DNA of 64,000 nt from Sphingopyxis sp. CCNWLW2 (GTDB taxonomy: Bacteria; Pseudomonadota; Alphaproteobacteria; Sphingomonadales; Sphingomonadaceae): positions 1,305,001-1,369,000 of the forward strand of contig NZ_JBAWKJ010000001.1 of the NCBI RefSeq assembly GCF_037095755.1, in the 5' to 3' direction. The first letter of the stretch is position 1. The number at the start of each line of letters is the position of its first letter. The notes beneath the pieces are model-generated. The model made no database searches and was not told the origin of the DNA. It saw nothing but the letters and a program-made list of their open reading frames with translations. This document shows, one piece after another, positions 6,889 to 61,880 of this stretch. The position numbers were made by a program, and so were the translations under genes.

Positions 6889-6904
6889 TTGATACCGGTG
6901 TCAA
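6889..6904. promoter_or_regulatory. LacI-type operator before receptor 1
   Basis: TTGATACCGGTGTCAA is a 16-base palindrome with one mismatched pair and the central CG typical of LacI-family operators. It lies about 45 bases upstream of the receptor start. Closely related sites occur at 8324, 56165 and 61865. The LacI gene at 60.7 kb is the natural candidate regulator. Confidence 0.65.
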
Positions 6905-6910
6905 TTTTAG

Positions 6911-6940
6911 ATGTCATACAACTTGTGAGATGTATTACAA
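6911..6940. promoter_or_regulatory. Two FadR/GntR-type boxes before receptor 1
   Basis: ATGTCATACAA (6911-6921) and ATGTATTACAA (6930-6940) are direct repeats 19 bases apart. The second fits the known FadR-subfamily pattern TNGTNNNACNA closely only when one edge base is relaxed; the first behaves the same way. On the minus strand a possible promoter TTGACT-N16-TAATAC spans 6932-6959, so the upstream box would overlap its -10. That would fit repression, but the promoter is only a guess. Confidence 0.58.
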
Positions 6941-6981
6941 CTTTGAGGGGGTAAGTCAATCGCCCGCTTTGTGGGGCGGAT

Positions 6982-7009
6982 ATGGGCCGGTTACGGCAGG
7001 CCGGCCCAT
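6982..7009 (-). terminator. Hairpin after the GH88/GH105 gene
   Basis: ATGGGCCGG and CCGGCCCAT form a perfect 9-bp stem with a 10-base loop, 6 bases past the stop of the hydrolase gene and before the receptor promoter. No T-run follows on the minus strand, so it may be a weak or factor-dependent terminator or an RNA-stabilising hairpin. Confidence 0.45.
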
Positions 7010-7014
7010 TTATA

Positions 7015-8166
7015 TCAACGTCTTACGCGCTTTCTCGACAGGTCGTACATCGCGGTGCCGGCGAGCAGATAGGCGCCGCTTCCGTAAAATTGCGTCTCCT
7101 TCGCCGACACGCTGTCAGGCCGGTCGCCGACCTGCTGGACCCAGCCGAGCATGCCGTCAGGCTGCACCGCGCGCTGCAGTGCATCCCATCCGCGCACTGC
7201 CGCCGGCTCGTATGTCGCGCGGTCGAGCAGGCCGTTGTCGACGCCCCACGCAAACGCATAGGTGAAGAAGGCGGTGCCGCTCGATTCGGGCGGGGTGCCC
7301 GGGTCCTGGTCGAGCAGCGAGGCGGGCCAATAGCCGTCGGCCTTTTGCAGCGTGACGAGTTTCGCCGACATATCCCTGAACAATTTCTCGTAGATCGGCC
7401 GCTTCGGATCCTTCTTGTCCATCACCTGCAGCATCCGCACGAGGCCGCCCATCACCCAGCCGTTGCCGCGGCTCCAGAACAGCTTGCGACCCTTGGCATC
7501 GCGCATGCCGAAGAATCGGCTGTCGCGGAAATAGAGATTTTCCGACGGATCGAAGAGATAGTCGGTCGTCGCCTTGAATTCCTCATGCGCAAAATCGGCA
7601 TAGCGTTTGTCGCCGGTCGCCTTCGACAGCCGCAGCAGGGTCGGCGGCGCCATGAACAAGGCGTCGCACCAGCACCAGCGGTCGGTGCATGTCGACGTGT
7701 TCTTGCCCGGCGCGACGGGGATGAATTCGAGGCTGATCGTTGGCCGATTGGCGAGGACATTGTCGAAATAGGCTTTCGTCGGCGCGATCGCGCCGTTGCC
7801 TGCGCCACTCTGCGCCGCCCACAGCCACGCCTGCCCGATCAGCTGGTCGTCGGCGTGATAGGCGAGGTCGCCGAGCTGCCATTTCTCGGCGCGACCGAGA
7901 TCGAGCAGCGGCTGCGCATATCTCTTGTCGCGGCTCGCAAGCTCGGTGAGCGCGACCCAGAAGGTCGCCTGCTGCCAGTCGCGCACTTCCTGCACGCTCT
8001 TGCGCGCCGCGGGCATCGTCGCCCAGTTGGTGCGGTTCGCGAGCTGCCAGTCGGCGACGCGGCGCGTCTGCGCGAGGATCGCCGCGGGCTGGGGCATCGC
8101 GGGTTCGGCGGGCGCCACCGCGGCGGCGGGGGCGGTCATCATCAGGGCAAAGAGGCTCAGCGGCAT
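7015..8166 (-). CDS. Glycoside hydrolase GH88/GH105, unsaturated uronyl hydrolase
   Basis: This 383-aa (alpha/alpha)6-barrel hydrolase of the GH88/GH105 group removes the delta-4,5-unsaturated uronic acid that lyases leave at the non-reducing end of oligosaccharides. A short hydrophobic N-terminus suggests export to the periplasm. Family marks are the ADDQLIGQ block (about 105-112), CDALFMAPP (167-175, with Asp168 the likely catalytic acid by family analogy) and WSRGNGWVMGGL (231-242). An AAGGA ribosome site lies 6-9 bases before the ATG. It is divergent from manD and shares its operator region. Its product, unsaturated uronate, is what KduI and KduD process after spontaneous ring opening, which ties both halves of the locus together. 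Confidence 0.86.
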   Translation of the reverse strand: MPLSLFALMMTAPAAAVAPAEPAMPQPAAILAQTRRVADWQLANRTNWATMPAARKSVQEVRDWQQATFWVALTELASRDKRYAQPLLDLGRAEKWQLGDLAYHADDQLIGQAWLWAAQSGAGNGAIAPTKAYFDNVLANRPTISLEFIPVAPGKNTSTCTDRWCWCDALFMAPPTLLRLSKATGDKRYADFAHEEFKATTDYLFDPSENLYFRDSRFFGMRDAKGRKLFWSRGNGWVMGGLVRMLQVMDKKDPKRPIYEKLFRDMSAKLVTLQKADGYWPASLLDQDPGTPPESSGTAFFTYAFAWGVDNGLLDRATYEPAAVRGWDALQRAVQPDGMLGWVQQVGDRPDSVSAKETQFYGSGAYLLAGTAMYDLSRKRVRR

Positions 8167-8323
8167 GGCGTTTCCTTCACGGCAACAAGGGGCGACCAGC
8201 GAAAGGAGGCACTTTTCGGCGTGATCTGCCAGACGTCACGCGCACCGCTCGCTTGCGGCCGGCGGGGTGCATCTGGCGCTGCGCATCGTGCTTCCTCTCC
8301 CATGGAGGTGTCGGCCTTTGGTC

Positions 8324-8339
8324 TTGACACCGGTGACAT
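8324..8339. promoter_or_regulatory. LacI-type operator in the hydrolase/manD divergent region
   Basis: TTGACACCGGTGACAT is an imperfect palindrome matching the other LacI-type sites in the window. It is followed by the perfect 10-base palindrome GACATATGTC (8335-8344, overlapping). It lies in the 244-base region between the GH88/GH105 gene and manD and could serve either direction. Its left edge, TTGACA, also resembles a -35 element. Confidence 0.65.
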
Positions 8340-8371
8340 ATGTCTTTCCTTTTGGATCGAGTGTCAATAAG

Positions 8372-8384
8372 GTTGTCACACAAC
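8372..8384. promoter_or_regulatory. FadR/GntR-type box before manD
   Basis: GTTGTCACACAAC is a perfect inverted repeat (GTTGT, 3-base centre, ACAAC) that fits the FadR-subfamily pattern TNGTNNNACNA. It lies 26 bases before the manD start. The manD operon carries the GntR gene itself, so autoregulation is likely. Confidence 0.65.
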
Positions 8385-8410
8385 TAGCCATGTGGCGATA
8401 AGGGGATGGA

Positions 8411-9622
8411 ATGCCGAAGATCGTGTCAGCCCGGGTAATATTGACCGCACCCGGCCGCAATTTCACGACGCTGAAGATCGAGTGCGACGACGGGACGACC
8501 GGCGTCGGCGATGCGACGCTCAATGGCCGCGAGCTCGCGGTCGCGGCTTATCTGTCGGAGCATGTCGTCCCCTGCCTGATCGGGCGCGACGCGCACCGCA
8601 TCGAGGATATCTGGCAATATCTCTACAAGGGTGCGTACTGGCGCCGCGGCCCGGTGACGATGGCGGCGATCGCCGCGGTCGACATGGCGCTGTGGGATAT
8701 CAAGGGCAAGGTCGCCGGACTGCCGGTGTATCAGCTGCTCGGCGGTGCCGCGCGCGAGGGCTGCATGGTCTATGGCCACGCCAATGGCACGACGATCGAC
8801 GACACGATCGAGGCGGCGCTCGATTACCAGCGGCAGGGATATAAGGCGATCCGCCTGCAATGCGGCGTGCCCGGAATGGCATCGACCTATGGCGTCAGCA
8901 AGGACCGCTATTTCTACGAACCCGCCGACAATGACCTGCCGACCGAGAATGTCTGGTCGACCGCGAAATATATGCGAATCGTCCCCGAACTGTTCGCGGC
9001 GGCGCGCGAGGCGCTCGGCTGGGATGTCCACCTGCTTCACGACGTCCACCACCGCCTGACCCCGATAGAGGCGGCGCGGCTTGGCAAGGATCTCGAGCCC
9101 TGGCGTCCCTTCTGGATCGAGGATGCGACCCCGGCCGAGGATCAGGAGGCGTTCCGCCTGATCCGCCAGCACACGACGACGCCGCTCGCGGTCGGCGAAA
9201 TCTTTAGTTCGATCTGGGACTGCAAGGCGCTGATCGAGAATCGGCTGATCGACTATATCCGCGCCACCGTGCTCCACGCGGGCGGCATCACGCATATGCG
9301 GCAGATCGCTTCGCTCGCCGATCTCCACCAGATCCGCACCGGCTGCCACGGCGCGACCGACCTGTCGCCGGTGACGATGGCGGCGGCGCTGCACCTTGGG
9401 CTTTCGATCCCTAATTTCGGGATCCAGGAATATATGCGCCACACCGTCGAGACCGACGCGGTCTTCCCGCACGCTTATCGCTTTGCGGACGGCATGCTCC
9501 ATCCGGGCGACGCGCCGGGGCTCGGCGTCGATATCGACGAGGCGCTCGCCGAAACATTCCCCTATGCCCGCGCCTATCTGCCGGTGAACCGGCTCGAGGA
9601 CGGCACAATATGGAGTTGGTGA
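8411..9622 (+). CDS. manD: D-mannonate dehydratase (enolase superfamily)
   Basis: This 403-aa enolase-superfamily enzyme dehydrates D-mannonate to 2-keto-3-deoxygluconate in the cytosol. It is collinear with the characterised Novosphingobium ManD as I recall it, including PGRNF near the start, [11 protein letters not shown] and the terminal WSW. The expected active-site residues are present: Arg148, Tyr160, Asp211 and His213 in LLHDVHH, Glu237 in [10 protein letters not shown], Glu263 in AVGEIF, and His313 in GCHGATD. The three acids are the Mg ligands of this family. Some ManD homologues are weak on mannonate, but the setting next to uronate genes supports the full role. The gene is translationally coupled to the DUF4861 gene downstream. 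Confidence 0.92.
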
Positions 9623-10539
9623 TGCGTTTGGCTTTCCTTGCCCTTGCTTTGCTCGCCGCGCCGGTGGGCGCCGAAGAGACCAAACCACAGCATAAACCGT
9701 TCCAGCCCGCCACGGCGGAGGAGAAAAAGGCGCGCGCGGCGGTGGTGATCGCCGATTATCGCTTCGACGACCTGCTCTGGGAAAACGACCGCATCGCGCA
9801 CCGCATCTATGGTCGCGCGCTCGAGGCGGCCGAGCCGCCCTCGTCGTCGGGGATCGACGCGTGGGGCAAGCGCGTGCGCTGGCCCTTCATGGACCGTCAG
9901 CTCAGAACCGGCGACCAGCATGCCGACCATGGCGAGGGGATCGACTTCTATAATGTCGGCACGGGGCGCGGTACCGGCGGGCTTGGCATCTGGTACGACA
10001 ACAAGCTCTGGACGTCGCGTAACTATGTGCGGCCGCGCATCCTGCAATCGGGCGCTGACGTCGCGGACTTCACCGTCGATTATGAGCCATGGCCGGTCGA
10101 TACGCTGCGCACCGTGCGGGAGACGCGCCGCTTCACGCTGCCCGCGGGGACGAATTTCACCCGGATGACCTCGACCATCGCGTCGAGCAGCGATGCCGAA
10201 TTGATCGTCGGGATCGGGATTTCGAAACGGCCGATAAATGGGAACAAGCTGGGTGAGGTCCGCAAGGATGCCGCCGCCGCGCGGTTGAGCTGGTGGGGCC
10301 CCGCCGATGGCGAAGGCGATAGCGGCAAGGGGCGGATGGCGGCGGCGGTGATCGTCGATCCGGCCGCCTTCGCGGGCTTTGCCGAGGACGCCGACAATTA
10401 TCTGATTCTGCTTCGCGTCCGGCCGGGGCAGCCCTTTGTCTATTACAGCGGCGCGGCGTGGGATCGCGGGGGCGACTTTGCGGCAGAGGATGGCTGGAAT
10501 AGCTATGTCGACGCGCAGCGACCCGATTTCCGGCCCTAG
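9622..10539 (+). CDS. DUF4861 family secreted protein
   Basis: This is a 305-aa protein of the uncharacterised DUF4861 family, judged from the blocks WENDRIAHRIYG (about 53-64), GIDAWGKRVRWP and the glycine-rich HADHGEGIDFYN...GTGGLGIW region. I chose the ATG at 9622, which shares one base with the manD stop (TGATG) and has GGAG six bases upstream. It gives a clean signal peptide ending PVGA; an in-frame ATG at 9610 is less likely. Export contrasts with cytosolic ManD, so it probably acts on the oligosaccharide in the periplasm. Members of this family recur beside uronate and rhamnose polysaccharide genes. I cannot assign a reaction. Confidence 0.78.
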   Translation: MRLAFLALALLAAPVGAEETKPQHKPFQPATAEEKKARAAVVIADYRFDDLLWENDRIAHRIYGRALEAAEPPSSSGIDAWGKRVRWPFMDRQLRTGDQHADHGEGIDFYNVGTGRGTGGLGIWYDNKLWTSRNYVRPRILQSGADVADFTVDYEPWPVDTLRTVRETRRFTLPAGTNFTRMTSTIASSSDAELIVGIGISKRPINGNKLGEVRKDAAAARLSWWGPADGEGDSGKGRMAAAVIVDPAAFAGFAEDADNYLILLRVRPGQPFVYYSGAAWDRGGDFAAEDGWNSYVDAQRPDFRP

Positions 10540-10572
10540 CCAGTTTCGCGGCGCGATGATAACGCAGCATCC

Positions 10573-11280
10573 ATGGCGGTAACCAAGGCGGCGTCGCTGG
10601 CGGATGATCTGGTCCAGCGCTTCGAGGAACAGATCGAAACGGGCGAAATGCCCGTCGGATCGCGTTTCCCGACTGAAAAAGAGATCACCGAGACGTTCGG
10701 CGTCAGCCGCACCGTCGTGCGCGAAGCTTATTCGCGCCTCGCTGCGCGTGGTCTGCTCGTGTCGCGGCGCGGGTCAGGGGCTTATGTTCCCGACGGCGCG
10801 CAATATCGCGCTTTCCAGGTCACCGCCGAGGAAATCGGCGAGATCGACGATGTGCTCAAGCTGCTCGAAATGCGCATGGGGTTCGAGGCCGAAATGGCCG
10901 ATCTCGCGGCGCGGCGGCGTACCGACGCCGATCTGGCGGCGCTGCGCAGCGCGCTCGACGCGATGGAGGAAGGCGGCGACGTCGACGCATCGGTCGCCGC
11001 CGATGCCGCCTTTCACGCTGCGATCGCAAGCGCGACGGGCAACCCCTATTTCCTGCGCTTCACCCAGTTTCTCGGCGTGCGGCTCGTCCCGTCGCGGCGG
11101 CTGTATCTGCAAGGCGACGATCCGGTCCGGCATCAACGCTATGCGCATACGATCAACCGCGACCATGAGGCGATCGTCGTCGCGATCGAGGCGGGCGATC
11201 CGGTCGCCGCGCGCCGCGCCGCGCGCCGGCATATCGAAAAATCGATTCTGCGCTATCGCACGCTCAAGGAGGGTCGATAG
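10573..11280 (+). CDS. FadR-subfamily GntR transcriptional regulator
   Basis: This 235-aa regulator has an N-terminal winged helix-turn-helix (about 10-75: SRFPTEKEITETFGVSR, then a GLLVSRRGSGAYV wing) and a C-terminal FCD ligand-binding domain (about 95-230) with the DAAFHAAIA and AARRHIEKSI helices typical of sugar-acid-responsive members. It follows the DUF4861 gene by 33 bases and is probably the last gene of the manD operon. The boxes of form TTGTCATACAA at 6911, 6930, 8372, 56094 and 56114 fit the FadR-subfamily consensus. I infer that it controls both halves of the uronate regulon, with a uronate or KDG-type metabolite as inducer. Confidence 0.88.
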   Translation: MAVTKAASLADDLVQRFEEQIETGEMPVGSRFPTEKEITETFGVSRTVVREAYSRLAARGLLVSRRGSGAYVPDGAQYRAFQVTAEEIGEIDDVLKLLEMRMGFEAEMADLAARRRTDADLAALRSALDAMEEGGDVDASVAADAAFHAAIASATGNPYFLRFTQFLGVRLVPSRRLYLQGDDPVRHQRYAHTINRDHEAIVVAIEAGDPVAARRAARRHIEKSILRYRTLKEGR

Positions 11281-11391
11281 CCGCTTGCCCGATAATGCGC
11301 GCTAATGATCGGTGCGATTGGTGCCGCACCCGTGCCCCAGAACGGGCCGCGCAGGAAATTAGCTATCTACTGACCTTGATTTCGACTCGTG

Positions 11392-11889
11392 ATGCTCTAT
11401 TCCAACCCCGTGCAAGGCGACCCCGACAATTACATAAGCCTGCTGTCTGCCGCGCAGATTGAAACGCTGCGGCACGTTTACGAGCACAAAAATTCCAAGC
11501 AGATCGCGCGGCTGATGAACGTTTCGCCGCACACCGTCGACGAGCGCGTGCGTCGCGTTCTAAAGAAGCTTAATGTTTCCAACAGGATAGAGGCGGCGCG
11601 TATCCTTGCTGTTAACGGTGTCTTCGATCATGTTACCCCTTATCAGCCTTTGACATATCAATTGATGGACCTTGGCGATATTTCTCCGCCCCCCGATGCC
11701 GATGCGGGGCGCAGTTCGTTTCGGCGATTTTTCGATATAGGTTCGCCATTTCCTACCGCGTCCCAGCCGGCCAACCGGCATGGGTTGATGGAAAGGATAA
11801 TCTGGCCGATTTTGATCGCTTTTGCGACAATATTGGCGTTCTCCGCCCTCTATTCGATCCTTGTCGGGCTCGGTCGTGTTCTGACCTGA
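11392..11889 (+). CDS. LuxR-type HTH protein with C-terminal membrane anchor
   Basis: This is a 165-aa protein. Residues about 17-70 form a GerE/LuxR helix-turn-helix (LSAAQIETLRHVYEHKNSKQ, then SPHTVDERVRRVLKKLNVSN). A low-complexity linker follows, then one hydrophobic segment near the end (IIWPILIAFATILAFSALYS). There is no receiver or ligand domain. A DNA-binding head tethered by a tail anchor suggests a membrane-bound regulator, but no target is visible. No clear Shine-Dalgarno sequence is seen, and GTG at 11389 is an alternative start. It heads a group of small genes that precede the flagellar locus. Confidence 0.72.
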   Translation: MLYSNPVQGDPDNYISLLSAAQIETLRHVYEHKNSKQIARLMNVSPHTVDERVRRVLKKLNVSNRIEAARILAVNGVFDHVTPYQPLTYQLMDLGDISPPPDADAGRSSFRRFFDIGSPFPTASQPANRHGLMERIIWPILIAFATILAFSALYSILVGLGRVLT

Positions 11890-11947
11890 TGTTCGAACGA
11901 ATGCTGCGGGGGGGAACCGGTAGCATTCTTTTTCAAGGAAAAAGAAG

Positions 11948-12322
11948 ATGCTGAATCAACGAGTTTCTGCGGCGAAGAAGATCGCTTCCGACCTGCATCT
12001 GGCCGAAGACGCCATCGACGAAGCGATGATCCGCATCGCCCAGCTCGCCGCGACGTTGCCCACCGCGCGCCGCGAAACCAACATGTCGGCGATCGTCGGC
12101 CAGGACGCGATGGCGAAAGTCGCGCATGCGCTCGCCGCCGCCGGCGAAGTCCGCCAGCTTCTGACCGACGCGCATCTGGCGCTGACCGTGACGCAGAAGG
12201 AAGTCGGGCTCGGCACGCGCATGTTCGGTGCGGGCGTCAAGCCGGCCGAAGCGAAGCTGGTCGCCGACGGCAGCAACGATCGCTCGGGCGACGGTGCTGC
12301 TACGTTCGCGAAGGCCGGTTGA
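11948..12322 (+). CDS. Conserved small protein of unknown function
   Basis: This 124-aa predicted soluble protein has an AAGGAAAAAG ribosome site before its ATG. It is rich in Ala and charged residues, with long amphipathic helices (KKIASDLHLAEDAIDEAMIR, then REVRQLL-like and LTVTQKE stretches), and it has no signal peptide or catalytic motif that I recognise. The helical pattern could support a coiled coil or a small helical bundle that binds a partner. It stands between the LuxR-TM gene and a small membrane protein gene, all on the same strand, which suggests that they may work together. Confidence 0.6.
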   Translation: MLNQRVSAAKKIASDLHLAEDAIDEAMIRIAQLAATLPTARRETNMSAIVGQDAMAKVAHALAAAGEVRQLLTDAHLALTVTQKEVGLGTRMFGAGVKPAEAKLVADGSNDRSGDGAATFAKAG

Positions 12323-12350
12323 ACCGCAAGAAAGAAGGTTGACAGCCACA

Positions 12351-12764
12351 ATGTGGTCCGTGGCGATTTATTATGTTGTCTTGCTCATCACGGTGGCCGT
12401 CGCGATCCGACGCGGCGGGCCACTGGAACGTTGGGCAGCCTATACAGCATTGATCGCCTCGGTCCTCACCAGTGCCCTGACGCCTTTTCCGACCTGGACC
12501 GATATCGAACTGAATATCTTCATCATAGACATGTTCGTTCTGCTGAGCTTCTGGTTCATTGCCATGCGCACGCAGAGCTTCTGGCCCTATTGGATTACCG
12601 GATGGCAGCTGATCGCCATTTTCGGCCATATCCAGAAGTTCATGTTTTCGGAGATATTGGCGCGACCCTATTCGCTTCTCTCAGTCTATATATCGTACCC
12701 GATCCTGTTGCTGATCATCTATGCATCGGGGTCGTCCAGCCGGCGGGAAAACGTCACGGCCTGA
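12351..12764 (+). CDS. Small integral membrane protein, unknown function
   Basis: This is a 137-aa protein with about four membrane helices: IYYVVLLITVAVAI, a second near YTALIASVLTSAL, LNIFIIDMFVLLSFWFIAM, and a last one near YPILLLIIYAS. I chose ATG 12351, which places the first helix at the N-terminus; upstream in-frame sequence overlaps the previous gene in a different frame and reads as non-protein. There is no recognisable family. It is 28 bases after the 124-aa gene and 27 before the winged-helix gene, so the three may be co-transcribed. Confidence 0.65.
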   Translation: MWSVAIYYVVLLITVAVAIRRGGPLERWAAYTALIASVLTSALTPFPTWTDIELNIFIIDMFVLLSFWFIAMRTQSFWPYWITGWQLIAIFGHIQKFMFSEILARPYSLLSVYISYPILLLIIYASGSSSRRENVTA

Positions 12765-12791
12765 TATGTGGCTCCCCGGGGGCATCGTCAC

Positions 12792-13295
12792 ATGCAGCAA
12801 TTTTCGAACCAAGAAATTGCCGAGCTGAAATCGCGGGTCGACCAGATCCATGAACTGCTGGCGAGCCGCGGCGAGGAATCGCCGGGCGTGACCGTACGCG
12901 CCATCGACAGCGCGCGCGGCAACACGCCGTCGAACGCGGCGCTGCTCGACCGGCTGTCGTTCAGCATCCAGGTCCGGCGCATCCGCCGCAGCCATTTCGG
13001 CACCGCCGAAATGTCGGGCCCGACCTGGGACATGATGCTCGACCTGATGCTCGCGGGCGCACACGGCCGCGTGCTCAGTGCCAGCGATCTTGCGACCGGG
13101 GCGGGCGTTCCGCTGTCATCGGGGCTGCGCATGATCGCGGCGCTCGAACGCCTCGGGCTGTTGCACCGCTCGATCGACGAGCGCGACCGGCGCCGCACGA
13201 TCGTCCGGCTGACCGACATCGGCACCGAACGCATGGCCAGCTATTTCGAGAAAATCGACGCCGCCTGGCAGAACGGGCAGACGCTGGCAGCCTAG
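12792..13295 (+). CDS. MarR-like winged-helix DNA-binding protein
   Basis: This is a 167-aa protein. Its first 25 residues (QEIAELKSRVDQIHELL) form a coiled-coil-like helix. The second half is a winged helix with the MarR pattern: SASDLATGAGVPLSSGLRMI as recognition region, LERLGLL, then a DERDRRRTIVRLT wing. The family is used as a local repressor or activator. I chose ATG 12792 over GTG 12768 because the extra residues are not helix-forming. It ends 54 bases before the convergent fliA gene, with a hairpin between them. Its target is unknown; flagellar control is possible but unsupported. Confidence 0.7.
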   Translation: MQQFSNQEIAELKSRVDQIHELLASRGEESPGVTVRAIDSARGNTPSNAALLDRLSFSIQVRRIRRSHFGTAEMSGPTWDMMLDLMLAGAHGRVLSASDLATGAGVPLSSGLRMIAALERLGLLHRSIDERDRRRTIVRLTDIGTERMASYFEKIDAAWQNGQTLAA

Positions 13296-13303
13296 CCCCC
13301 CAA

Positions 13304-13344
13304 ACCGGGTGCGGGGCCGACTGGTCGCGCGCACCGCACCCGGT
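13304..13344. terminator. Bidirectional hairpin between the winged-helix gene and fliA
   Basis: ACCGGGTGCGG (13304-13314) pairs perfectly with CCGCACCCGGT (13334-13344) across a 19-base loop. It lies between two convergent genes, so it can end both transcripts. No T-run is present. Confidence 0.6.
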
Positions 13345-13348
13345 CCCC

Positions 13349-14095
13349 CTATTCGGTCATTTCCTTCATCATGCGATCGACCTTGATCATCGCCTCGCGC
13401 TTGATCTGGCAGATGCGCGCGGCGCTGACGTCGAGGGTCAGGCCGATTTCGTGCAGGTTGAGCTCTTCGAAGAAATAGAGCTGGAGCACCATCTGTTCGC
13501 GGTGCGACAGGCGGCCGACGCACTGGCGCAGTGCGCCCATCAGATCCTCCTGTTCGCACCGCTCGTCGGCGCCCGTATCGTCGTCAGCCGCGAGGAAGGC
13601 GCCGATGTCGGTGAGCTCGTCGAGTGAGGTCGACCGGCCGTGCGTCGCATTGCGTTCGAGCGCGAAATAATCCTCCGCCGACATGTCGAACGCGACCGCC
13701 ATTTCGGCCGTCGTCGGCGCGCGCATCAACTGCTGTTCGAGCGTGCTGCGCATCGCGTGGATCCGCTTCGCCGCGACCATCGCCGAGCGGCCGACATCGG
13801 CCTCGCGGCGCAGCTGGTCGATCATCGCGCCGCGGATGCGCGTCGTCGCATAGGTGGCAAAGGCGAACCCGCGCTCCTCATAATTTCGGCTCGCCTCGAT
13901 CAGCGCGATCAGCCCGGTCTGGATCAAATCGTCGAGCTCGCTCGTCCGCGACACGCGCGAAAACACCTGCCACGCGATCTTGCGAACCAGCGGCGAATAT
14001 TCCTCGACCAGCGCCTCGACGCTTTCGCCGTAGCCGCGTGCGCGCGGCGCGCGGCCGACGGTCCCGGCAAATTGCTCGGCGGGCTCAATTCTCAT
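13349..14095 (-). CDS. fliA: Flagellar sigma factor sigma-28 (FliA)
   Basis: This is a 248-aa sigma factor that directs RNA polymerase to late flagellar genes. Region 2 spans about residues 30-100 (YSPLVRKIAWQVF, SELDDLIQTGLIALIEA, FATYATTRIRGAMIDQLRR). Region 4 is at the C-terminus (LSHREQMVLQLYFFEELNLH, then SAARICQIKREAM). The ATG at 14095 overlaps the end of flhA by 11 bases, so it is co-translated with flhA. The same operon starts at a sigma-54-type promoter at 17065, which puts FliA under class II control. FlgM at 17.4 kb is its antagonist. Likely target promoters are at 17767, 26442, 31538 and 43425. Confidence 0.93.
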   Translation of the reverse strand: MRIEPAEQFAGTVGRAPRARGYGESVEALVEEYSPLVRKIAWQVFSRVSRTSELDDLIQTGLIALIEASRNYEERGFAFATYATTRIRGAMIDQLRREADVGRSAMVAAKRIHAMRSTLEQQLMRAPTTAEMAVAFDMSAEDYFALERNATHGRSTSLDELTDIGAFLAADDDTGADERCEQEDLMGALRQCVGRLSHREQMVLQLYFFEELNLHEIGLTLDVSAARICQIKREAMIKVDRMMKEMTE

Positions 14096-17032: not shown

Positions 17033-17064
17033 GGCTGTTGGTTCCGCTTGTTCAGCAGACCAAA

Positions 17065-17080
17065 AGCAATCATCGTGCCA
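17065..17080 (-). promoter_or_regulatory. Sigma-54-type promoter for SLT-flhA-fliA
   Basis: On the minus strand TGGCACGATGATTGCT matches the sigma-54 consensus TGGCACGRNNNTTGCW at every defined base. GG and GC are correctly spaced. Transcription would start near 17054, about 20 bases before the SLT start. Confidence 0.72.
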
Positions 17081-17112
17081 TTTCGTGGAAACGGCTGGAA
17101 ATTATGTGGTTA

Positions 17113-17421
17113 TCAGTAGCTTAAAGCCACCCCGCGCGGACGGGTGCCACGGATTTCGTGGCTCTTGTCAATCCTCTGACGCGTCCAGTTCTTCAGGATG
17201 TTGACGCGCATCGCGGCGGCTTCGAGCTGGCCGAGCGTCTTCCCGATCAGCACGCGGGCGCGATGTTCGCTGCCCGCGGGGATATTCGCACCACGAAACA
17301 GGATCACGGCGGTTGCCAATTCTTCGGTCGCCGCGATGATCGCGCCGGCGTCATGCCCGTCGAGCGCGCCGACCAATGTTTCAAGCCGCGATTCAATTTC
17401 TTCCATCTCTGCCAGCATCAT
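17113..17421 (-). CDS. Small protein after FlgM, possible FlgN-like chaperone
   Basis: This is a 102-aa, mostly helical protein whose start overlaps the flgM stop by 4 bases (ATGA). The first 60 residues (EMEEIESRLETLVGAL, then IIAATEELATAVILF) and a later LGQLEAAAMRVNILKNW helix resemble the long helices of FlgN, the export chaperone for FlgK and FlgL. Position supports that, since flgN commonly follows flgM. The match is by pattern and place only. It could instead be an unrelated small flagellar protein. Confidence 0.55.
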   Translation of the reverse strand: MMLAEMEEIESRLETLVGALDGHDAGAIIAATEELATAVILFRGANIPAGSEHRARVLIGKTLGQLEAAAMRVNILKNWTRQRIDKSHEIRGTRPRGVALSY

Positions 17422-17714: not shown

Positions 17715-17766
17715 AAAAGCCTCCATCCGGTGCCGTCAGAAAAGTGACGACGCGGTTCACGAAGGC

Positions 17767-17795
17767 TTTAACGGACGCGGTTCCCGGCGATTAAG
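17767..17795 (-). promoter_or_regulatory. Candidate sigma-28 promoter for flgM
   Basis: On the minus strand: CTTAATC, 13 bases, TCCGTTAAA. The same arrangement with the same spacing is found before motA, fliD and fliC. It lies just downstream of the flgA terminator. Confidence 0.62.
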
Positions 17796-54763: not shown

Positions 54764-54769
54764 AAGAGG

Positions 54770-55951
54770 TTACTTGCCCTTAGCTTGGGCGTCGCCGCCC
54801 TTCGGAGCGCCCACGCGCTGCGCGCTGCTTGCCGGGACCGGGCGGATCGGTGCGCCCTGCCGAAGATTGCCGATGCCCTGCGTGATCACGCGATCGCCGG
54901 GTTTCAGCCCGTCGGTGACGACCCAATTGGCGCCCGAGGTGCGGTCGGCGACGATCTTGCGCCGTGCCGCCTTATTGTCCTTGCCGACGAGATAGACGAA
55001 GGCCGATCCGTCGAAATCGCGCTGCACCGCGGCTTGCGGCAGCAGGATCGCGGTCGGGTTCACCGCCTGATCGAACAGCGCGGTCACGAACATGCCGGGC
55101 AGCAGGATGCCCCTGGGATTGGGGAAGCGCGCGCGCAGCGTGATGGTGCCCGTCGCCTCGTTGACCGTGACGTCGGAAAACTGGACGACGCCGGCAAAGG
55201 GGTAGGCGCTGCCGTCCTCCATGCGCAGGCGCACCGAGGTGCTGCCCGCGGTGACCCCGCCGCTTTCGATCGCCTGCCGCAGCGTAGTGAGCTCGGCGCT
55301 CGACTGCTGCATGTCGACATACATCGGGTCGGTCTGCTGGATCACCGCAAGCGGGCTCGCCTGGCTCGCGCTGACGAGTGCGCCGGGGGTCGCGAGGCTG
55401 CGGCCGATGCGGCCGCTGATCGGCGCGGTGATCGTCGCAAAACGCAGGTTGATGCGCGCGGTTTCCAGCGCGGCGCCATTCTGCGCGACCGCGGCGCGCG
55501 CCATCCGCGCCTGTGCCAGCGCGTCGGTGTAATCCTGCTCGGCGACCGCCTGCATCTTCGCAAGCGGTTCGAGCCGCCGCGCGCGTTCGTCGGCCGCCTG
55601 TGCGCTCGCGCGGGCGCTCGCGAGGTTCGCGGCGGCCTGGTCGACCCCCGCCTGATAAAGGCTCGCGTCGATCTGGTAGAGCGGCTGGCCGGCGCGCACA
55701 AAGCCGCCTTCGGTGAACAGGCGGCGGCGGATCAGGCCGTTCACCTGCGGGCGCACTTCGCTCGTCTCGAACGCGACGGTGCGGCCGCCGAGCGACGAGG
55801 TGACGGGCACCGGCTCGACCTTGACGGCGACATAGCCGACCTCGGGCGCGCCGCGGCCATTCTTGCTTTCATCCTGACCCGAGCAGGCGCCGAGCAGCAG
55901 GCTTGCGGCACACAGGGCTCCGGCCAGCAACAGCGACCTTTTGTCCAGCAT
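54770..55951 (-). CDS. RND efflux membrane-fusion protein (lipoprotein)
   Basis: This is a 393-aa periplasmic adaptor of the AcrA/MexA family. A lipobox LLGAC follows the signal sequence. The half-lipoyl motifs (VRPQVNGLIRRRLFTEGGFV; ITAPISGRIGRSLATPGALV) bracket a hairpin rich in Ala and Arg. I chose ATG 55951; the frame upstream is non-protein. It heads the efflux operon and is divergent from the second receptor gene. Confidence 0.92.
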   Translation of the reverse strand: MLDKRSLLLAGALCAASLLLGACSGQDESKNGRGAPEVGYVAVKVEPVPVTSSLGGRTVAFETSEVRPQVNGLIRRRLFTEGGFVRAGQPLYQIDASLYQAGVDQAAANLASARASAQAADERARRLEPLAKMQAVAEQDYTDALAQARMARAAVAQNGAALETARINLRFATITAPISGRIGRSLATPGALVSASQASPLAVIQQTDPMYVDMQQSSAELTTLRQAIESGGVTAGSTSVRLRMEDGSAYPFAGVVQFSDVTVNEATGTITLRARFPNPRGILLPGMFVTALFDQAVNPTAILLPQAAVQRDFDGSAFVYLVGKDNKAARRKIVADRTSGANWVVTDGLKPGDRVITQGIGNLRQGAPIRPVPASSAQRVGAPKGGDAQAKGK

Positions 55952-56092
55952 AGTTGGTTGTTCTCGTATCGGTTCGCCGCAAGGCGGGGAGGCTTTGCGC
56001 CCTTTCAACCCATTGGTTTGCCGCATGCAAGCGCAATGCGGGCGATGCGACAAATTACGACAATTTTTATGCCGCGGCGCATTGTCCGTCCG

Positions 56093-56125
56093 AGTTGTCA
56101 TACAAGGGCGACAGTTGTCATACAA
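56093..56125. promoter_or_regulatory. Tandem FadR/GntR-type boxes before receptor 2
   Basis: AGTTGTCATACAA occurs twice, at 56093-56105 and 56113-56125, exactly 20 bases apart and 13 of 13 identical. The inner TTGTCATACAA fits the FadR-subfamily pattern TNGTNNNACNA. The same box family precedes receptor 1 and manD. Confidence 0.68.
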
Positions 56126-56164
56126 TTATTGCTTGACACGGGCCCGGTAATTCCCGCATCATTC

Positions 56165-56180
56165 GTGACACCGGTTACCA
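56165..56180. promoter_or_regulatory. LacI-type operator before receptor 2
   Basis: GTGACACCGGTTACCA is 15 of 16 identical to the site before kduI (61865) and has the same ACCGGT centre as those at 6889 and 8324. It is 128 bases before the receptor start. Confidence 0.68.
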
Positions 56181-56307
56181 GTGCCGGGCAACGATATAGA
56201 AACGGGAAGGCGGCTGGCGCGGCCACAAGGGCTAGCCATCAGGCGCAATCTCCATGGGAATTATTGGCGCGCGGGCGACAGGCCGCCGCCGGCGTGGGAG
56301 GATGAAG

Positions 56308-58917
56308 ATGGCTATTCAGGCAAGGCGGGGCGTCCGAGCATTGGCGAAACTGGCGGGCGGGGCGTCGCTTGCGGCGCTGGCGCTATCGCCAGCCCATGCG
56401 CAGGACGCGGCGGCTCCGGCCGCCGATGACGCGATCGTGGTGACCGGTATCCGGGCGTCGCTCGAACGCGCGGCCGACATCAAGCGCGAAGCCGACCAGG
56501 TCATGGATGTCATCACCGCCGAAGATGTCGGAAAGCTGCCTGACGCCAACGTCGCCGAAGCGCTGCAGCGCGTCACCGGCGTCCAGATCACCCGCGTCTT
56601 CGGCGAAGGCCAGTCGGTGTCGGTGCGCGGGTTGCAGCAGGTCCGCGTCGAGGTCGACGGGCGCACCCTGCTCGGCTGGTCGGCGCGCCTGTCGCCGCCC
56701 GAGAACGACCAACTCGGTCGCTCATCGGGGCTCGATTCGGTGCCCTCCAGCCTGTTCGGCCGATTGGAAGTGCGCAAGTCGCCGCTCGCCAGCAATGCCG
56801 AAGGCGGCCTCGGCGGCACGGTGAACCTCGTCACGCCGAAGCCGCTGTCGTTCAAGGAGCCGACGATCTCGGTCCGCGCGCAGGGCGTCTATTCGGAAAA
56901 TTCGGACAAGTTCGAACCCGCGATCACGGGCTTTGCGACGACCAAATTCGCCGATGGCCGTATCGGCATCATGCTCGCGGGCGAATATCAGAAGCGCACG
57001 TCGATGACGCAGACCTTCGAGCGCAACAATTTCCTCAACCGGAACTATACCGGCACCGGCGGCGGCGTGGTCCCGACCCCGGTGCTGCTGCAGTATGAGC
57101 AGTTCACAGTCGACCGCTCGCGCCTCGGCCTCAACGGCGCGATCCAGTTCGAAGTGACCCCCGAATTCACCATCACCGCCGACGCGCTCTATTCGAAGCT
57201 CAAGACCGGGCGACGGCAGGACTTTTTCGCCTTCCGCCTGCCGACGGGCACCAACCCTGTCACCAACCGGGTCGTCGAGGACGGCATGGTGGTCGCGGGC
57301 AACGCCAACGGTACCGTCACCACCGCGGGACAGATCCGCAACGAGCCGACCGAAAGCTTCCTCTATGGGCTCAACGGCAAATATGAGGGCGACAACGGGC
57401 TGACGATCGAGGCTGACGGCTATTACAGCAAGGGCACGATCGACCAGACGATCCAGATCATCACCTTGCAGGGCACCGCGCTGGTCCCGGGGGCGTTCGA
57501 TTTCCGCGACACGACGATCCCGTCGCTGACGCTGACCGGGCCGTTCAATCCGACCAATTATGCGTCGTACAATCCGGCGAACAACGGGGTACGCAGCAAC
57601 CGCCTGATCGGCCTGCTCGACGAATATACGGGCAAGATCGACGTCAGTTACGAAACCGGCGGCGTCACGATCGCGGCGGGGGTCCGCTATACCGACCTGC
57701 ATGCGCGCTCGAACGCGTTCCGCAGCCAGGTCACCCCCACGCGTGCCGAGATCGAACCCTTTCTGAAGCTGGTGAACACCGGCGATTTCCTGTCCGACAT
57801 TCCGGGAACCTTCCCGCGCAGCTTCCTGAGCACAGCGCCAACCTTCGACTATGTCTTCACCCGCGCGCAGGCGGCCGAACCCAATCCGAACGCGAACGGG
57901 CGTTCGACGTTGCTGCCCAATCTGCAGCGCGACTATGACTTCAGCGAAAAGACGCTCGCCGGTTACCTGATGGTGTCGGGCGAGGGCGAGATCGCGGGCA
58001 TCCCGTACAAGGCCAATGCCGGAGTGCGCATCGCGTCGACGCGGCTGTCGGTCGATAGCTATGTCAACGTCGGCACCGTCAGCCGGCTGGTCAACGACAA
58101 GAATCGCTACACCAATGTGCTGCCCAGCGCGAATATCGCCTTCAACGTCACCGACGATTTCCTGATCCGCGTGTCGGGGTCGCAGACGATGCAGCGCGCC
58201 TCGATCGCCGATCTCGCGCCATCGACCTTCTTCAACGCGACGAACCTGTCGGTCACCGGCGGCAATGTGAATCTCGAACCGCCGATCTCAACGCAGGCCG
58301 ATGTCAGCTTCGAATATTATACGGGCAAGAGTTCGCTGATCTCGGGCGCGGTCTTTTACAAGGATGTGAAGAATTTCATCGCGAGCTTCGTGACCACCGG
58401 GGTCGACACCAATCTCGACCCGCAGGGCCGCGAACTCACCTTCTCGCGCCCCGAAAATCTCGCCAGCGCGAAGATCAAGGGGTTCGAAATCGGCATCCAG
58501 CAGTTCTTCGATTTCCTGCCGTCGCCGCTCGACGGCTTCGGCGTGATCGCGAACTACACCTATTCGGATTCCGAAGACAGCGCGGGCTTCCCGCTCGTCG
58601 CGGTGTCGAAGAACAGCTACAATCTTGTCGGCCTGTACGAGAAGGGGCCTTTCTCGGCGCGCATTGCGTACAACTACCGCGACGAGGCAGTGTTCGAATT
58701 TTCGGAAGGGCGGCCGAGCTTCGTCGGTTCGCGCTCGCAGCTCGATGCGCAGATCGGGGTCGATATCACCAAGAATATCGCGCTGTCGCTCCAGGCGCAG
58801 AATCTGATGCCGAAGAAATCGGCGACGACCGAGTATAGCAATTTCAACACGACCGCGCTCAACAGCTATGCTTTGTCCGAGCGGCGCTTCTCGGTTGGCG
58901 TGCGCGCGAAGTTCTAA
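56308..58917 (+). CDS. TonB-dependent outer-membrane receptor (uronan uptake, locus half B)
   Basis: This is an 869-aa TonB-dependent receptor. Signal peptide ends SPAHAQ. The plug starts IVVTGIRASLERAADIKREA and has LPDANVAEALQRVTGVQITR, the pattern of sugar-oligomer receptors in this group. The barrel ends FSVGVRAKF with the usual terminal Phe. I chose ATG 56308, which has GGGAGG six bases upstream; an in-frame ATG lies at 56302. Its promoter carries both operator types of the regulon. Followed after 71 bases, with a hairpin, by the beta-helix gene. Oligo-uronate import is inferred from context. Confidence 0.9.
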   Translation: MAIQARRGVRALAKLAGGASLAALALSPAHAQDAAAPAADDAIVVTGIRASLERAADIKREADQVMDVITAEDVGKLPDANVAEALQRVTGVQITRVFGEGQSVSVRGLQQVRVEVDGRTLLGWSARLSPPENDQLGRSSGLDSVPSSLFGRLEVRKSPLASNAEGGLGGTVNLVTPKPLSFKEPTISVRAQGVYSENSDKFEPAITGFATTKFADGRIGIMLAGEYQKRTSMTQTFERNNFLNRNYTGTGGGVVPTPVLLQYEQFTVDRSRLGLNGAIQFEVTPEFTITADALYSKLKTGRRQDFFAFRLPTGTNPVTNRVVEDGMVVAGNANGTVTTAGQIRNEPTESFLYGLNGKYEGDNGLTIEADGYYSKGTIDQTIQIITLQGTALVPGAFDFRDTTIPSLTLTGPFNPTNYASYNPANNGVRSNRLIGLLDEYTGKIDVSYETGGVTIAAGVRYTDLHARSNAFRSQVTPTRAEIEPFLKLVNTGDFLSDIPGTFPRSFLSTAPTFDYVFTRAQAAEPNPNANGRSTLLPNLQRDYDFSEKTLAGYLMVSGEGEIAGIPYKANAGVRIASTRLSVDSYVNVGTVSRLVNDKNRYTNVLPSANIAFNVTDDFLIRVSGSQTMQRASIADLAPSTFFNATNLSVTGGNVNLEPPISTQADVSFEYYTGKSSLISGAVFYKDVKNFIASFVTTGVDTNLDPQGRELTFSRPENLASAKIKGFEIGIQQFFDFLPSPLDGFGVIANYTYSDSEDSAGFPLVAVSKNSYNLVGLYEKGPFSARIAYNYRDEAVFEFSEGRPSFVGSRSQLDAQIGVDITKNIALSLQAQNLMPKKSATTEYSNFNTTALNSYALSERRFSVGVRAKF

Positions 58918-58929
58918 AAAGAGGTCCCC

Positions 58930-58976
58930 GGCATGGCGGTGCCCCCGACCTTTCACTGGTCGCGCGCCGCCATGCC
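58930..58976 (+). terminator. Hairpin between receptor 2 and the beta-helix gene
   Basis: GGCATGGCGG (58930-58939) and CCGCCATGCC (58967-58976) form a perfect 10-bp stem over a 27-base loop. There is no T-run. In an operon it may cut downstream expression or protect the receptor mRNA. Confidence 0.45.
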
Positions 58977-58988
58977 AAAAAGGGGGTA

Positions 58989-60701
58989 ATGCCAAACGGG
59001 CCGCAGGGAGTGTATCGGGTTATGATTTCGGGTGATCGGCGTGCACGCCTTATTTCGGTTCTGGCGCTCGGCGCGGCGCTCATCTTCCCGGCGCAGGCAC
59101 AGCCAACGAAACTGCCCAAAATCCTTTCGGACCCGGCGACCGTAGCGGCGAACCCGCTGCCCGATTTCAGCTATGCGGGCTATGGCTTCGGGCTGGCTCC
59201 GATCCCCGTCGATGCGGGCACCGTCATCGACGCGACGGACCATGGCGCGATCGCCGACGACGGGCTCGACGATACCAAAGCGGTGCTGCGCGCGCTCGCC
59301 GCAGCAAACGCGGTAAAGGGCAAGGTGACGCTGCGTTTCCCCAAGGGGCGCACGCAGATCACCGAAGTGCTGCGGATCACGCGCAGCGACATCGTTCTCG
59401 ACGGCGCGGGCGACGGCCCCGGCGGCAGCGAGCTCTGGTTCCCGCGGCCTCTGAAGCTGATCGACCAGAGTCCCGATTATGACGAGCTGCGCGAATATAT
59501 GGTGCGCGAGAAGAAGCAGCAGGTCGAGCCCGAGCATAATATCGATTATCTGTTCACCGAATATACGTGGGCGGGCGGGATGATCTTTGTCGCGCCTGCG
59601 GGCAGCCGGCCGGTCTCCTATGACGGGACGAAGGATGTCCGCGACCCGGTGCTCGAGAACGGCGTATCGGGCAAGCAGTTCGGCCGCACGCTGGCGGTCG
59701 ACAATGCGGCAAGGCTCAAGGTCGGCGATGTCGTTCAGCTGCAATGGTTTTCGGTCGACGGGCCGAACAGCCGGATATTGAAATCGCTCTATGGCGATAC
59801 CGACCTGCCAATCGGCTCGCATCACTGGAGCTTTCCGAACCGGCCGGTGGTCGCGCAGGCGACGCGCATCGCGGCGGTGCGCGGCAAAACGGTGACGCTC
59901 GGCGATCCGCTGCTCCACGATGTCCGCGCCGACCAGCCCGCGGTGGTCGCGCAATGGACGCATCTGTCGAACGTCGGCATCCAGAATCTGCGGCTGCAAT
60001 TCCCCGAGGCGCCCGCGTTCGGGCATCATCTCGAACAGGGCTATAACGGCATCTATATGACCGGCGTGTTCGACGGCTGGGTGAAGAAGCTGACGATCGA
60101 CCGTGCGGACAGCGGCATCCTCACCGATAATGCCGCGAGCCTGACGATCGCCGACATCACCACAACCGGCGACCGCCGCGCGCATTATTCGGTGCATGTC
60201 GGGGCGGTGCACAATGTGCTCGTCAGGGATCTGAAGGTCGCAAATCCGGTCGTTCACCCGGTGAGCATCAACACGCGCTCGACGCGCTCGGTGTTCCTGC
60301 GTCCGGTCGTCGAGAAAGAGGCGATCATCGACCAGCACAGCGGGTCGAACCACCAGAATCTGTTCGACGCGATCGAGATGCACATCGACCCGAAGCAGGG
60401 GAAAGACGACTGGCACTACCAGCTGTGGGTTGGCGGCGGTGCGCCCTATTGGAAGCCGGGGCATGGACTCTACAACACGCTGTGGAACGCCCGGCTGGTC
60501 ATGCCCGAAAGCGTGCCCGCCGATGCGACGGTCGCGATCATAAGCGGGCTCGAAGGGCCGGGCGAGCGGATCGTCGGCCTGCACGCAAACCGCAAGATTG
60601 CGGTCAGCTACACCCCCGCGCCCTATATCGAGGGCACGGGGCAGGCGGTCGCCGCCGTGCCGTCGCTTTACGAATATCAGCTTGCGCGTCGGCGCCGCTG
60701 A
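58989..60701 (+). CDS. Right-handed beta-helix protein, pectate-lyase superfamily
   Basis: This is a 570-aa secreted protein. A signal peptide (LISVLALGAALIFPAQAQ) ends near residue 38. At about 81-99 comes the DATDHGAIADDGLDDTKAV block typical of the Pectate_lyase_3/GH28-related beta-helix start. Repeating short strands follow (NVGIQNLRLQF, GWVKKLTIDRADSGILTDNA, NVLVRDLKVANPVV). It is most likely a polysaccharide lyase or hydrolase acting on the receptor's substrate, but I recognise no family-defining catalytic set. ATG 59022 is an alternative start that would give a shorter n-region. The gene ends 4 bases before the convergent lacI-type gene. Confidence 0.78.
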   Translation: MPNGPQGVYRVMISGDRRARLISVLALGAALIFPAQAQPTKLPKILSDPATVAANPLPDFSYAGYGFGLAPIPVDAGTVIDATDHGAIADDGLDDTKAVLRALAAANAVKGKVTLRFPKGRTQITEVLRITRSDIVLDGAGDGPGGSELWFPRPLKLIDQSPDYDELREYMVREKKQQVEPEHNIDYLFTEYTWAGGMIFVAPAGSRPVSYDGTKDVRDPVLENGVSGKQFGRTLAVDNAARLKVGDVVQLQWFSVDGPNSRILKSLYGDTDLPIGSHHWSFPNRPVVAQATRIAAVRGKTVTLGDPLLHDVRADQPAVVAQWTHLSNVGIQNLRLQFPEAPAFGHHLEQGYNGIYMTGVFDGWVKKLTIDRADSGILTDNAASLTIADITTTGDRRAHYSVHVGAVHNVLVRDLKVANPVVHPVSINTRSTRSVFLRPVVEKEAIIDQHSGSNHQNLFDAIEMHIDPKQGKDDWHYQLWVGGGAPYWKPGHGLYNTLWNARLVMPESVPADATVAIISGLEGPGERIVGLHANRKIAVSYTPAPYIEGTGQAVAAVPSLYEYQLARRRR

Positions 60702-60705
60702 CCCT

Positions 60706-61761
60706 TCAGCGCTCCGGCGGCGGCGCGACCGACTGGCGCTCGACAAAGGTCGAGGCGAGCACAGTGCCTTCATCGTCCGCGATCTTGGCGCCCGGGCCGA
60801 GGAAATCGGGGACGAGCGTTTGCGCGGCGCGGATGCCCATTTCGCGGATCGGCCAGCGCACGGTGCTGAGCGCGGGCCAGATATGCGTCGCGGTCGGGCT
60901 GTCGTCGAAGCCGATGATCGACAATTCGCCGGGGACCTTGATACCCTTGCTGTGCGCGACGCTCATCACGCCCGCCGCCATTTCGTCGTTCGAACAGAAG
61001 AGCGCGGTCGGGGGAACGGGCAGCGACAGCAAAGCTTCGCCGGCTTCGATCCCCGCGGTGTAGCGGTAATTGCCGGGCGCATAGAGTTCGCCCGGAAGGT
61101 CGAGCCCGGCCTCGGCCAGCGCTTCGCGGAACCCCTCCTCACGCTCGGCGGCCGAACGGAAACCGACCGGGCCGCGCACGAAACCGATGCGGCGATGGCC
61201 GAGCGCGATCAGCCCGCGCACCGCCTCGGCGACGACCTCGCGGTCGTTCGACGAGATGCAATGCTTTTCGTCGTCGATCCGCGCCGACCCAATGCGGACA
61301 TAGCGCACGCCCAGATCCTCGCAGAGCGCGGAGAGATCGTCATTCTCCGAAATCGGCGGGAGCAGCATCGCGCCGATCGGGCGTTGCTTTTCGAGGAAGG
61401 TGCGCACATCGTCGAGCATCTTGTCCGACCCGCGATCGACGGGGCGGACGAGCAAAGCAAGGTCGCTGTCCTTGATCGCGTCGAGCACCCCGCGCTGGAA
61501 ATTGAGCACCGTCTGCGCGTTCGGATTGTCGTGGAGCAGCGCGATCAGGAAGTTGCGGCGAAAGGCGAGCGCGCGCGCCTGCGGATTGGGAACGAAGCCC
61601 AATTGCTCGATCGCCTTTTCGACCGTGGCGCGCGTCTTGTCGGTCAGGAATTCGGAGCGGTTGATCACCCGGCTCACGGTCTTTTTCGAAACCCCCGCAA
61701 GCGCCGCGACGTCGTTGATCGTCGGCTGCTTGCCCCCCGGCCCCTTGGTTTGTGCCGCCAT
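60706..61761 (-). CDS. LacI-family transcriptional regulator
   Basis: This is a 351-aa regulator. The helix-turn-helix is at residues about 12-35 (QPTINDVAALAGVSKKTVSR), then the hinge NPQARALA, then a periplasmic-binding-type ligand domain with GHRRIGFVRGP and IIGFDDSPTA. I chose ATG 61761, preceded by AGGGGAAAG; a longer frame to 61893 only adds non-conserved residues that overlap the operator region. It is divergent from kduI, whose LacI-type operator is about 105 bases away. It probably represses kduI and the other ACCGGT-bearing promoters until a uronate product appears. Confidence 0.92.
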   Translation of the reverse strand: MAAQTKGPGGKQPTINDVAALAGVSKKTVSRVINRSEFLTDKTRATVEKAIEQLGFVPNPQARALAFRRNFLIALLHDNPNAQTVLNFQRGVLDAIKDSDLALLVRPVDRGSDKMLDDVRTFLEKQRPIGAMLLPPISENDDLSALCEDLGVRYVRIGSARIDDEKHCISSNDREVVAEAVRGLIALGHRRIGFVRGPVGFRSAAEREEGFREALAEAGLDLPGELYAPGNYRYTAGIEAGEALLSLPVPPTALFCSNDEMAAGVMSVAHSKGIKVPGELSIIGFDDSPTATHIWPALSTVRWPIREMGIRAAQTLVPDFLGPGAKIADDEGTVLASTFVERQSVAPPPER

Positions 61762-61864
61762 ATTCGCTCTTTCCCCTGCAAGCCTCTGGCCCGGCTCGCG
61801 CTTTCTTTGCTGATGGGCGCTCGAAAGCGTAAAATCAACCGCCCGGCGGGGGTGCCAACACCTC

Positions 61865-61880
61865 TTGACACCGGTTACCA
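61865..61880. promoter_or_regulatory. LacI-type operator before kduI
   Basis: TTGACACCGGTTACCA, nearly the same as the receptor 2 site. It is 52 bases before the kduI start and in the divergent gap shared with the LacI gene. Its left part, TTGACA, could also be the -35 of a promoter. There is no GntR-type box here. Confidence 0.68.

Follow-up and report, generated by a model that had tools for sequence, protein, structure and literature searches.

A probable dual-input uronate regulon of Sphingopyxis, with LacI-type and GntR-type boxes and a GntR half that is present or absent as a block

The window analysed here, a stretch of 64,000 nucleotides (G000 C1:1305001-1369000) from the 4.62 Mb genome of Sphingopyxis sp. 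CCNWLW2, holds two groups of uronate genes, half A and half B, both with LacI-type and GntR-type boxes in their promoters. Half A (1496-11280) begins with two alginate-lyase-superfamily proteins on the minus strand, at 1496..2659 (PF05426, 247.9 bits; nearest solved chain 3nfv) and 2669..3904 (PF05426, 264.5 bits; nearest solved chains 3nfv and 8bdq), followed on the same strand by the TonB-dependent receptor TonB1 (3901..6843; TIGR01782, 526.9 bits, above the cut-off) and a GH88 unsaturated-uronyl-hydrolase-like protein (7015..8166; PF07470, 229.7 bits). On the plus strand lies an operon of D-mannonate dehydratase ManD (8411..9622; NF043051, 726.4 bits against a cut-off of 550), a DUF4861 protein (9610..10539; PF16153, 161.9 bits) and, as its third gene, a GntR-family regulator (10573..11280). 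The latter has a helix-turn-helix (PF00392, 67.6 bits) and an FCD domain (PF07729, 99.5 bits), as expected of the FadR subfamily, and stays under the NCBIfam cut-offs for the E. coli-type equivalogs UxuR (80.1 against 442 bits) and ExuR (71.2 against 396 bits), as well as for LldR, NanR and PdhR.

Half B starts with the receptor TonB2 (56254..58917, plus strand; TIGR01782, 607 bits) and a beta-helix polysaccharide-lyase-like protein (58989..60701, plus strand), which has a partial NF058554 match below the cut-off and a weak PF12708 match, the domain that its relatives carry; its AlphaFold model has a mean pLDDT of 43 and was not used. The LacI-family regulator on the minus strand (60706..61761) combines a helix-turn-helix (PF00356, 64.9 bits) with a periplasmic-binding-like sensor domain (PF13377, 121.4 bits), both above gathering scores. 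Its longest open reading frame begins at a TTG at 61893, and since this start would place the operator inside the coding region, the ATG at 61761 is likelier. KduI (61932..62774; NF002091, 374.3 bits against 250) and KduD (62850..63620; TIGR01832, 406.6 bits against 338.85) follow on the plus strand, as does the 5' part of a PfkB/KdgK-like kinase (63668..64000; full gene L044:1668-2681, in the coordinates of the stretch beyond the window). The domain matches thus agree with the earlier note on this DNA, made from sequence alone, which had placed a GntR-FCD gene at 10573 and a LacI gene at 60706; among the genes sampled between the halves we likewise find the flagellar, SOS-type (DnaE2-type and IMS-type polymerases) and RND efflux genes it described.

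The regulon does not stop at the end of the window but runs about 16 kb further, to about C1:1385218, with pectin/galacturonate-type genes. This outer stretch holds the KdgK-like kinase, two esterase-like proteins, a PelZ-like pectate lyase, a TonB receptor (TonB3) and a GH43 protein, and then a galactarate/altronate-dehydratase-like protein, a 2-keto-4-pentenoate-hydratase-like (FAH-like) protein, an MFS transporter, UxaC and a fructuronate-reductase-like (UxuB-type) protein. ManD, KduI, KduD and UxaC pass their NCBIfam cut-offs, while the kinase, PelZ-like, dehydratase-like, hydratase-like and reductase-like proteins fall under theirs and are named by best match only. By standard uronate pathways half A would release glucuronate and unsaturated uronate, half B would supply KduI, KduD and KdgK together with UxaC and UxuB, and ManD of half A would close the mannonate branch. 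For glucuronate each half would then depend on the other, and this would account for their shared control; the predicted substrate is a glucuronate-rich or related uronate polymer.

The four LacI-type palindromes of the earlier note were read exactly where it had placed them. The TonB1 promoter carries one at 6889..6904 (TTGATACCGGTGTCAA) with GntR-type boxes at 6911..6921 (ATGTCATACAA) and 6930..6940 (ATGTATTACAA); the promoter region between GH88 and manD has a LacI-type box at 8324..8339 (TTGACACCGGTGACAT) and a GntR-type box at 8373..8383 (TTGTCACACAA); and the TonB2 promoter has a distal and a proximal GntR-type box at 56095..56105 and 56115..56125 (both TTGTCATACAA) and a LacI-type box at 56165..56180 (GTGACACCGGTTACCA). 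Between lacI and kduI there is only a LacI-type box (61865..61880; TTGACACCGGTTACCA). All five GntR boxes claimed earlier exist, although three of them start one base later than given (8373, 56095 and 56115, not 8372, 56094 and 56114). The GntR form that had been quoted for all five fits exactly at 56095 and 56115 only; the box at 6930 departs from it by three mismatches, keeping TGT-N3-ACA. A further dual promoter lies beyond the window, in front of the FAH-like-MFS-UxaC-UxuB operon (hereafter the uxaC operon), with a LacI box at L044:13324 and a GntR box at L044:13296, and two more LacI boxes (L044:7077 and 7221) mark the pectate lyase/TonB3 promoter as LacI-only, like that of lacI/kduI. Thus LacI boxes are found at all four regulon promoters of the window and GntR boxes at three, and the earlier statement that both halves carry both box types stands; the inputs are asymmetric, with lacI/kduI as the one promoter without a GntR box. 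Three of the six GntR sites of this genome have A in place of T as their first or last base. At TonB2 a core promoter TTGACA-18-CATCAT is predicted at 56133..56162 on the plus strand (10/12 matches, TTGACA unchanged in 11 aligned genomes), so that the LacI box is predicted to cover the likely transcription start, with the GntR boxes on the upstream side of the -35 element. The same scan of the other three dual promoters found no promoter.

Matrices were built from the seven LacI and six GntR sites of this genome, so that any comparison with background is partly circular. With this proviso, in 82 kb (the window plus 18 kb downstream) the regulon LacI sites score 16.9-23.3 against 11.8 for the next best, and the GntR sites 16.4-19.2 against 11.2. 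In the whole genome the LacI pattern has four matches with at most two mismatches, three of them in the regulon, and 24 with at most three mismatches (6 in the regulon and 18 outside), compared with 14 in a control read backwards. From the control count we take the 18 outside matches as due to chance; three were inspected. One LacI-type match lies near a rifampin-ADP-ribosyltransferase-like gene (C1:1480096), another inside an open reading frame with a Usp domain (C1:753646). A LacI-like palindrome, GTGAAACCGGTTACAA, is found at L048:5424 (C3:450424), flanked by genes for a GH3 protein and a TonB receptor, and is perhaps the site of another LacI-family regulator. The GntR pattern with at most one mismatch has 19 matches genome-wide (5 in the 34-kb regulon and 14 outside) against 20 in the control, and its only perfect matches are those at 56095 and 56115. 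One GntR box alone carries little information, and binomial chances calculated for these genome-wide counts are biased, the patterns having been derived from the regulon's own sites. A box-pair pattern, whose gap limit makes it miss the 56165 promoter, has nine matches against five in the control, three of them in the regulon. The motifs are therefore not equally frequent in unrelated promoters, the outcome that the earlier note had said would tell against it, yet for the single GntR box there is no excess over the control.

The pairing of regulators and boxes is best judged in relatives. In a same-genus sample of 24, LacI orthologues (at least 57% identity) were present in 18 and GntR orthologues (at least 83%) in 11, all within the 18. 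The LacI half was fetched for the 18 and the GntR half for the 11, giving, with the own genome, 12 GntR-positive and 7 GntR-negative genomes to scan; relatives were counted with the own genome left out, at LacI scores of at least 15 and GntR scores of at least 14. A GntR box lies within 100 bp of 37 out of 74 LacI boxes in the 11 GntR-positive relatives and of 0 out of 23 in the 7 GntR-negative ones (Fisher 2.9e-6, a value that ignores kinship among closely related genomes whose counts are not independent). Over 763,617 bp, again without the own genome, 50 GntR boxes are no more than 150 bp from a LacI box, and 5 are found elsewhere. Column-permuted matrices placed 0 or 1 near a LacI box in 19 trials, as against 56 for the real matrix with the own genome included. 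Of 27 named GntR loci, several of which belong to genomes that also bear a G number here, 26 have one or more box pairs spaced within 100 bp, L174 (G465) being the exception. Alignments covering 10, 12, 11 and 12 genomes show the boxes and the -35 element of TonB2 as conserved islands. The lacI promoter has its LacI box in 12/12 GntR-positive genomes and a GntR box in 0/12; at manD, 11/12 have a LacI box in the promoter (all but G019).

A fairer test is offered by the promoter of the FAH-like gene heading the uxaC operon, since this gene persists in genomes without GntR. It was found in 64 of 80 genus genomes, among them all 37 that have GntR, and the promoter was read in 63, one genome (G462), where the gene matched only in part, being dropped; second copies in G453, G457 and G471 and a distant copy in G439, which was not read, were left out of the comparison. 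The LacI box is present in 62/63 genomes (G481 is without it), and a GntR box scoring at least 13 is present in 14/36 GntR-positive genomes versus 0/27 GntR-negative ones (Fisher 1.2e-4, likewise uncorrected for kinship). This amounts to few independent events, in part of one lineage; the pattern fits GntR reading the box and falls short of proof. In G457 (L250-L251), G453 (L255-L256) and G471 (L253) the second FAH-like copy sits beside a lyase of the 58989 type, with neither box scored in front of it.

More distant genomes also carry GntR boxes. In G162 and G083, of the same family with another genus code (GntR 62-63% identical), the stretch between DUF4861 and GntR has two of them, 19 bp apart, and weaker ones are found beside GH88 and after KduI, while no LacI box scored at least 15 in the 18 kb fetched. 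Because GntR boxes adjoin the GntR homologue there with no LacI box scored, these genomes support the pairing. In G430 (GntR 72% and 67%) GntR boxes are found near TonB genes, and one has a LacI box as its partner; four loci titled Sphingomonas have a box pair at the GH88/DUF4861 promoter and two more GntR boxes that stand alone. A family sample of 397 genomes from 96 genera has LacI in 120 genomes and 45 genera (E <= 1e-95) and GntR in 6 genomes and 3 genera (E <= 1e-70), so LacI is the common regulator and GntR its rare partner, with the warning that the two cut-offs differ.

Half A is a block of 9.8 kb that some strains have and others lack. The genes flanking it, for an acyl-CoA dehydrogenase and a LuxR-type protein, are 180-519 bp apart in six of ten GntR-negative genomes, compared with 9.9 kb; in the other four and in the seven GntR-positive genomes the 1.5-kb flanks fetched showed no LuxR gene. 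The flanks are thus close together in 6 of the 17 genomes examined, all six GntR-negative. The two halves are joined in a single cluster in G450, G453, G457 and G471, each of which has dual boxes at TonB2 and manD, and in G004 the TonB2 orthologue is beside half A, on a contig other than that of LacI. ManD is found in 11 of the 24 relatives, all GntR-positive, and a TonB2 orthologue in 11/12 GntR-positive versus 0/7 GntR-negative genomes in the stretches fetched. On this comparison of sequences, half A, with or without TonB2, appears to behave as a block. A recent 45-kb insertion into a single original cluster was considered and set aside: the flanks are close in six GntR-negative genomes, the distance from GntR to LacI is 44.7-52.6 kb in 11 genomes measured (own included), and the intervening genes sampled are flagellar, repair and efflux genes. 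Hence the earlier idea of one dual-input regulon split in two keeps its dual input, which the relatives support, while the split gives way to a present-or-absent block that adjoins half B in four genomes. No mobility gene was noticed near half A, although no search was aimed at such genes. G006 keeps GntR and boxes, and its lyases, TonB1 and GH88 were not found in the half-A stretch fetched, so half A looks reduced there; at about 8830-9260 of L137 (G006) LacI, GntR, LacI and GntR boxes succeed one another within 190 bp before a ManD match of 69 residues, and a ManD that is 69% identical is found elsewhere in that genome.

We consider it probable that LacI and GntR bind their respective boxes in one dual regulon, in which half A would be a module wired into an older LacI network as a feed-forward loop. 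The pairing and the dual input are supported by the co-occurrence of the boxes in relatives and by their conservation, without being proven. The hierarchy is suggested by the LacI box in front of the manD-DUF4861-gntR operon and the lack of a GntR box in front of lacI, which argue for hierarchical rather than symmetric wiring; as far as placement goes, the boxes put one regulator on the other and both on the targets. In the simplest wiring LacI would stand above GntR, GntR would act on itself and both would act on the targets. LacI would repress the whole set, including gntR, until bound by a breakdown product, a role that fits the position of its box over the predicted TonB2 start. GntR would add a second, module-specific condition at both module TonB receptors and at GH88/manD, and in this lineage may act also on the uxaC/uxuB-type operon, which would supply mannonate to ManD. 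It may be a repressor throughout, or an activator at TonB2 and the uxaC operon. According to passages of PMC4494728, carboxylic acids are among the small ligands bound by FadR-subfamily regulators, and a uronate or aldonate would suit as the GntR ligand.

Several observations weigh against this reading. Apart from the missing genome-wide excess of single GntR boxes (19 versus 20), the uxaC-operon promoter is without a GntR box in 22/36 GntR-positive genomes, and this box requires four changes on a tree that covers 41 of the proteins, two or more of them forced by well-supported branches. TonB1, manD and TonB2 (the last as judged in the fetched stretches) are absent along with GntR, which leaves their boxes unfit for testing the pairing, and the kinship of the relatives lowers the weight of all box counts. 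In G019 the GntR box at TonB1 and the LacI box at manD are both missing, and G465 (L248/L249, L174) keeps the GntR gene (73%) with no GntR box scored and the half-A genes not found there; its GntR is perhaps an orphan regulator. Finally, a GntR paralogue on contig 3 has the same SRTVVREA stretch and could bind the same boxes.

Three rival explanations were weighed. The first is that of two independent single-input circuits, in which each regulator senses its own sugar, both block the same promoters and gntR is not truly limited by LacI; here LacI may act mainly on GH88, since the box before manD-gntR sits in a promoter shared with it. We regard this as rather unlikely, given that the LacI box at manD is kept in all but one of the 12 GntR-positive genomes scanned. 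That another FCD regulator, most likely the contig-3 paralogue, reads the boxes, which would place the module under a second uronate locus or under both GntR proteins, draws on the 46% identity of that paralogue and a box-like TTATATGACAA upstream of it. It is quite improbable, as the paralogue is found, at the cut-off applied, in six genomes (own, G006, G014, G016, G020 and G024) whereas boxes are present also in G004, G005, G008, G011 and G023 without it, and as boxes adjoin the GntR of the module in distant genomes. In the locus in question, L133 (C3:688001-702000), the GntR gene has a KduI-like gene, a TonB receptor and an MFS transporter in its neighbourhood, and no LacI box reaches a score of 15; it is a separate uronate locus that might cross-talk. 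Least credible to us is that LacI alone works and that the GntR boxes are old or weak, of little effect and retained through overlap with promoter elements. The uxaC-operon promoters, nearly all with a LacI box and only 14 with a GntR box, and the exceptions G019 and G465 would fit such a picture, but GntR boxes are conserved at varying distance from the LacI box, stand alone without it in distant genomes and are not matched by permuted matrices.

The closest working analogue known to the dual regulon is the ExuR/UxuR pair of E. coli, where, as predicted here, the genes for UxaC, UxuB, mannonate dehydratase and transport are under the joint control of two regulators. Passages of PMC9369180 describe ExuR and UxuR as both repressing their own genes, and as two GntR-family paralogues that cross-regulate, probably as heterodimers, whereas here the regulators are from unrelated families with different boxes. 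LacI-family uronate regulators (examples being ExuR, KdgR, UxaR and UxuR) were sorted into six orthologous groups by Ravcheev et al., 2014 (PMC4052901), whose proteins, in the passages considered, control glucuronate/galacturonate genes, as the LacI described here is predicted to do; the main text of that survey contains no word starting Sphingomonad, and our LacI is set beside the six groups by description only. The FadR-subfamily consensus is given in passages of PMC4494728 as TKGT/ACMA with a spacing of mostly 3 nt, and our GntR, with its helix-turn-helix, its FCD domain and candidate boxes of the TKGT-N3-ACMA type at the likely cognate promoters, resembles that subfamily. In a literature search with most subscription papers outside its scope we found no description of a LacI+GntR uronate regulon in this group, nor any in hexuronate/GntR-motif or PL38/glucuronan lyase work, and the papers listed for the box strings in full text (4, and 20 of 85) are unrelated by title; on this basis alone we call the system unreported.

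It is also conceivable, though we hold the idea only tentatively, that half A is a plug-in cassette which brings LacI operators together with its own GntR and becomes a feed-forward branch wherever it is inserted, the host network then evolving towards the cassette. The GntR box of the uxaC operon, gained in one lineage, would be an example of the latter step. The genus itself provides a natural experiment on the way in which a control network takes in a new catabolic module: some strains have no module, some have it beside the old regulon, some have it about 45 kb away, and some carry one more GntR box in front of a resident operon.

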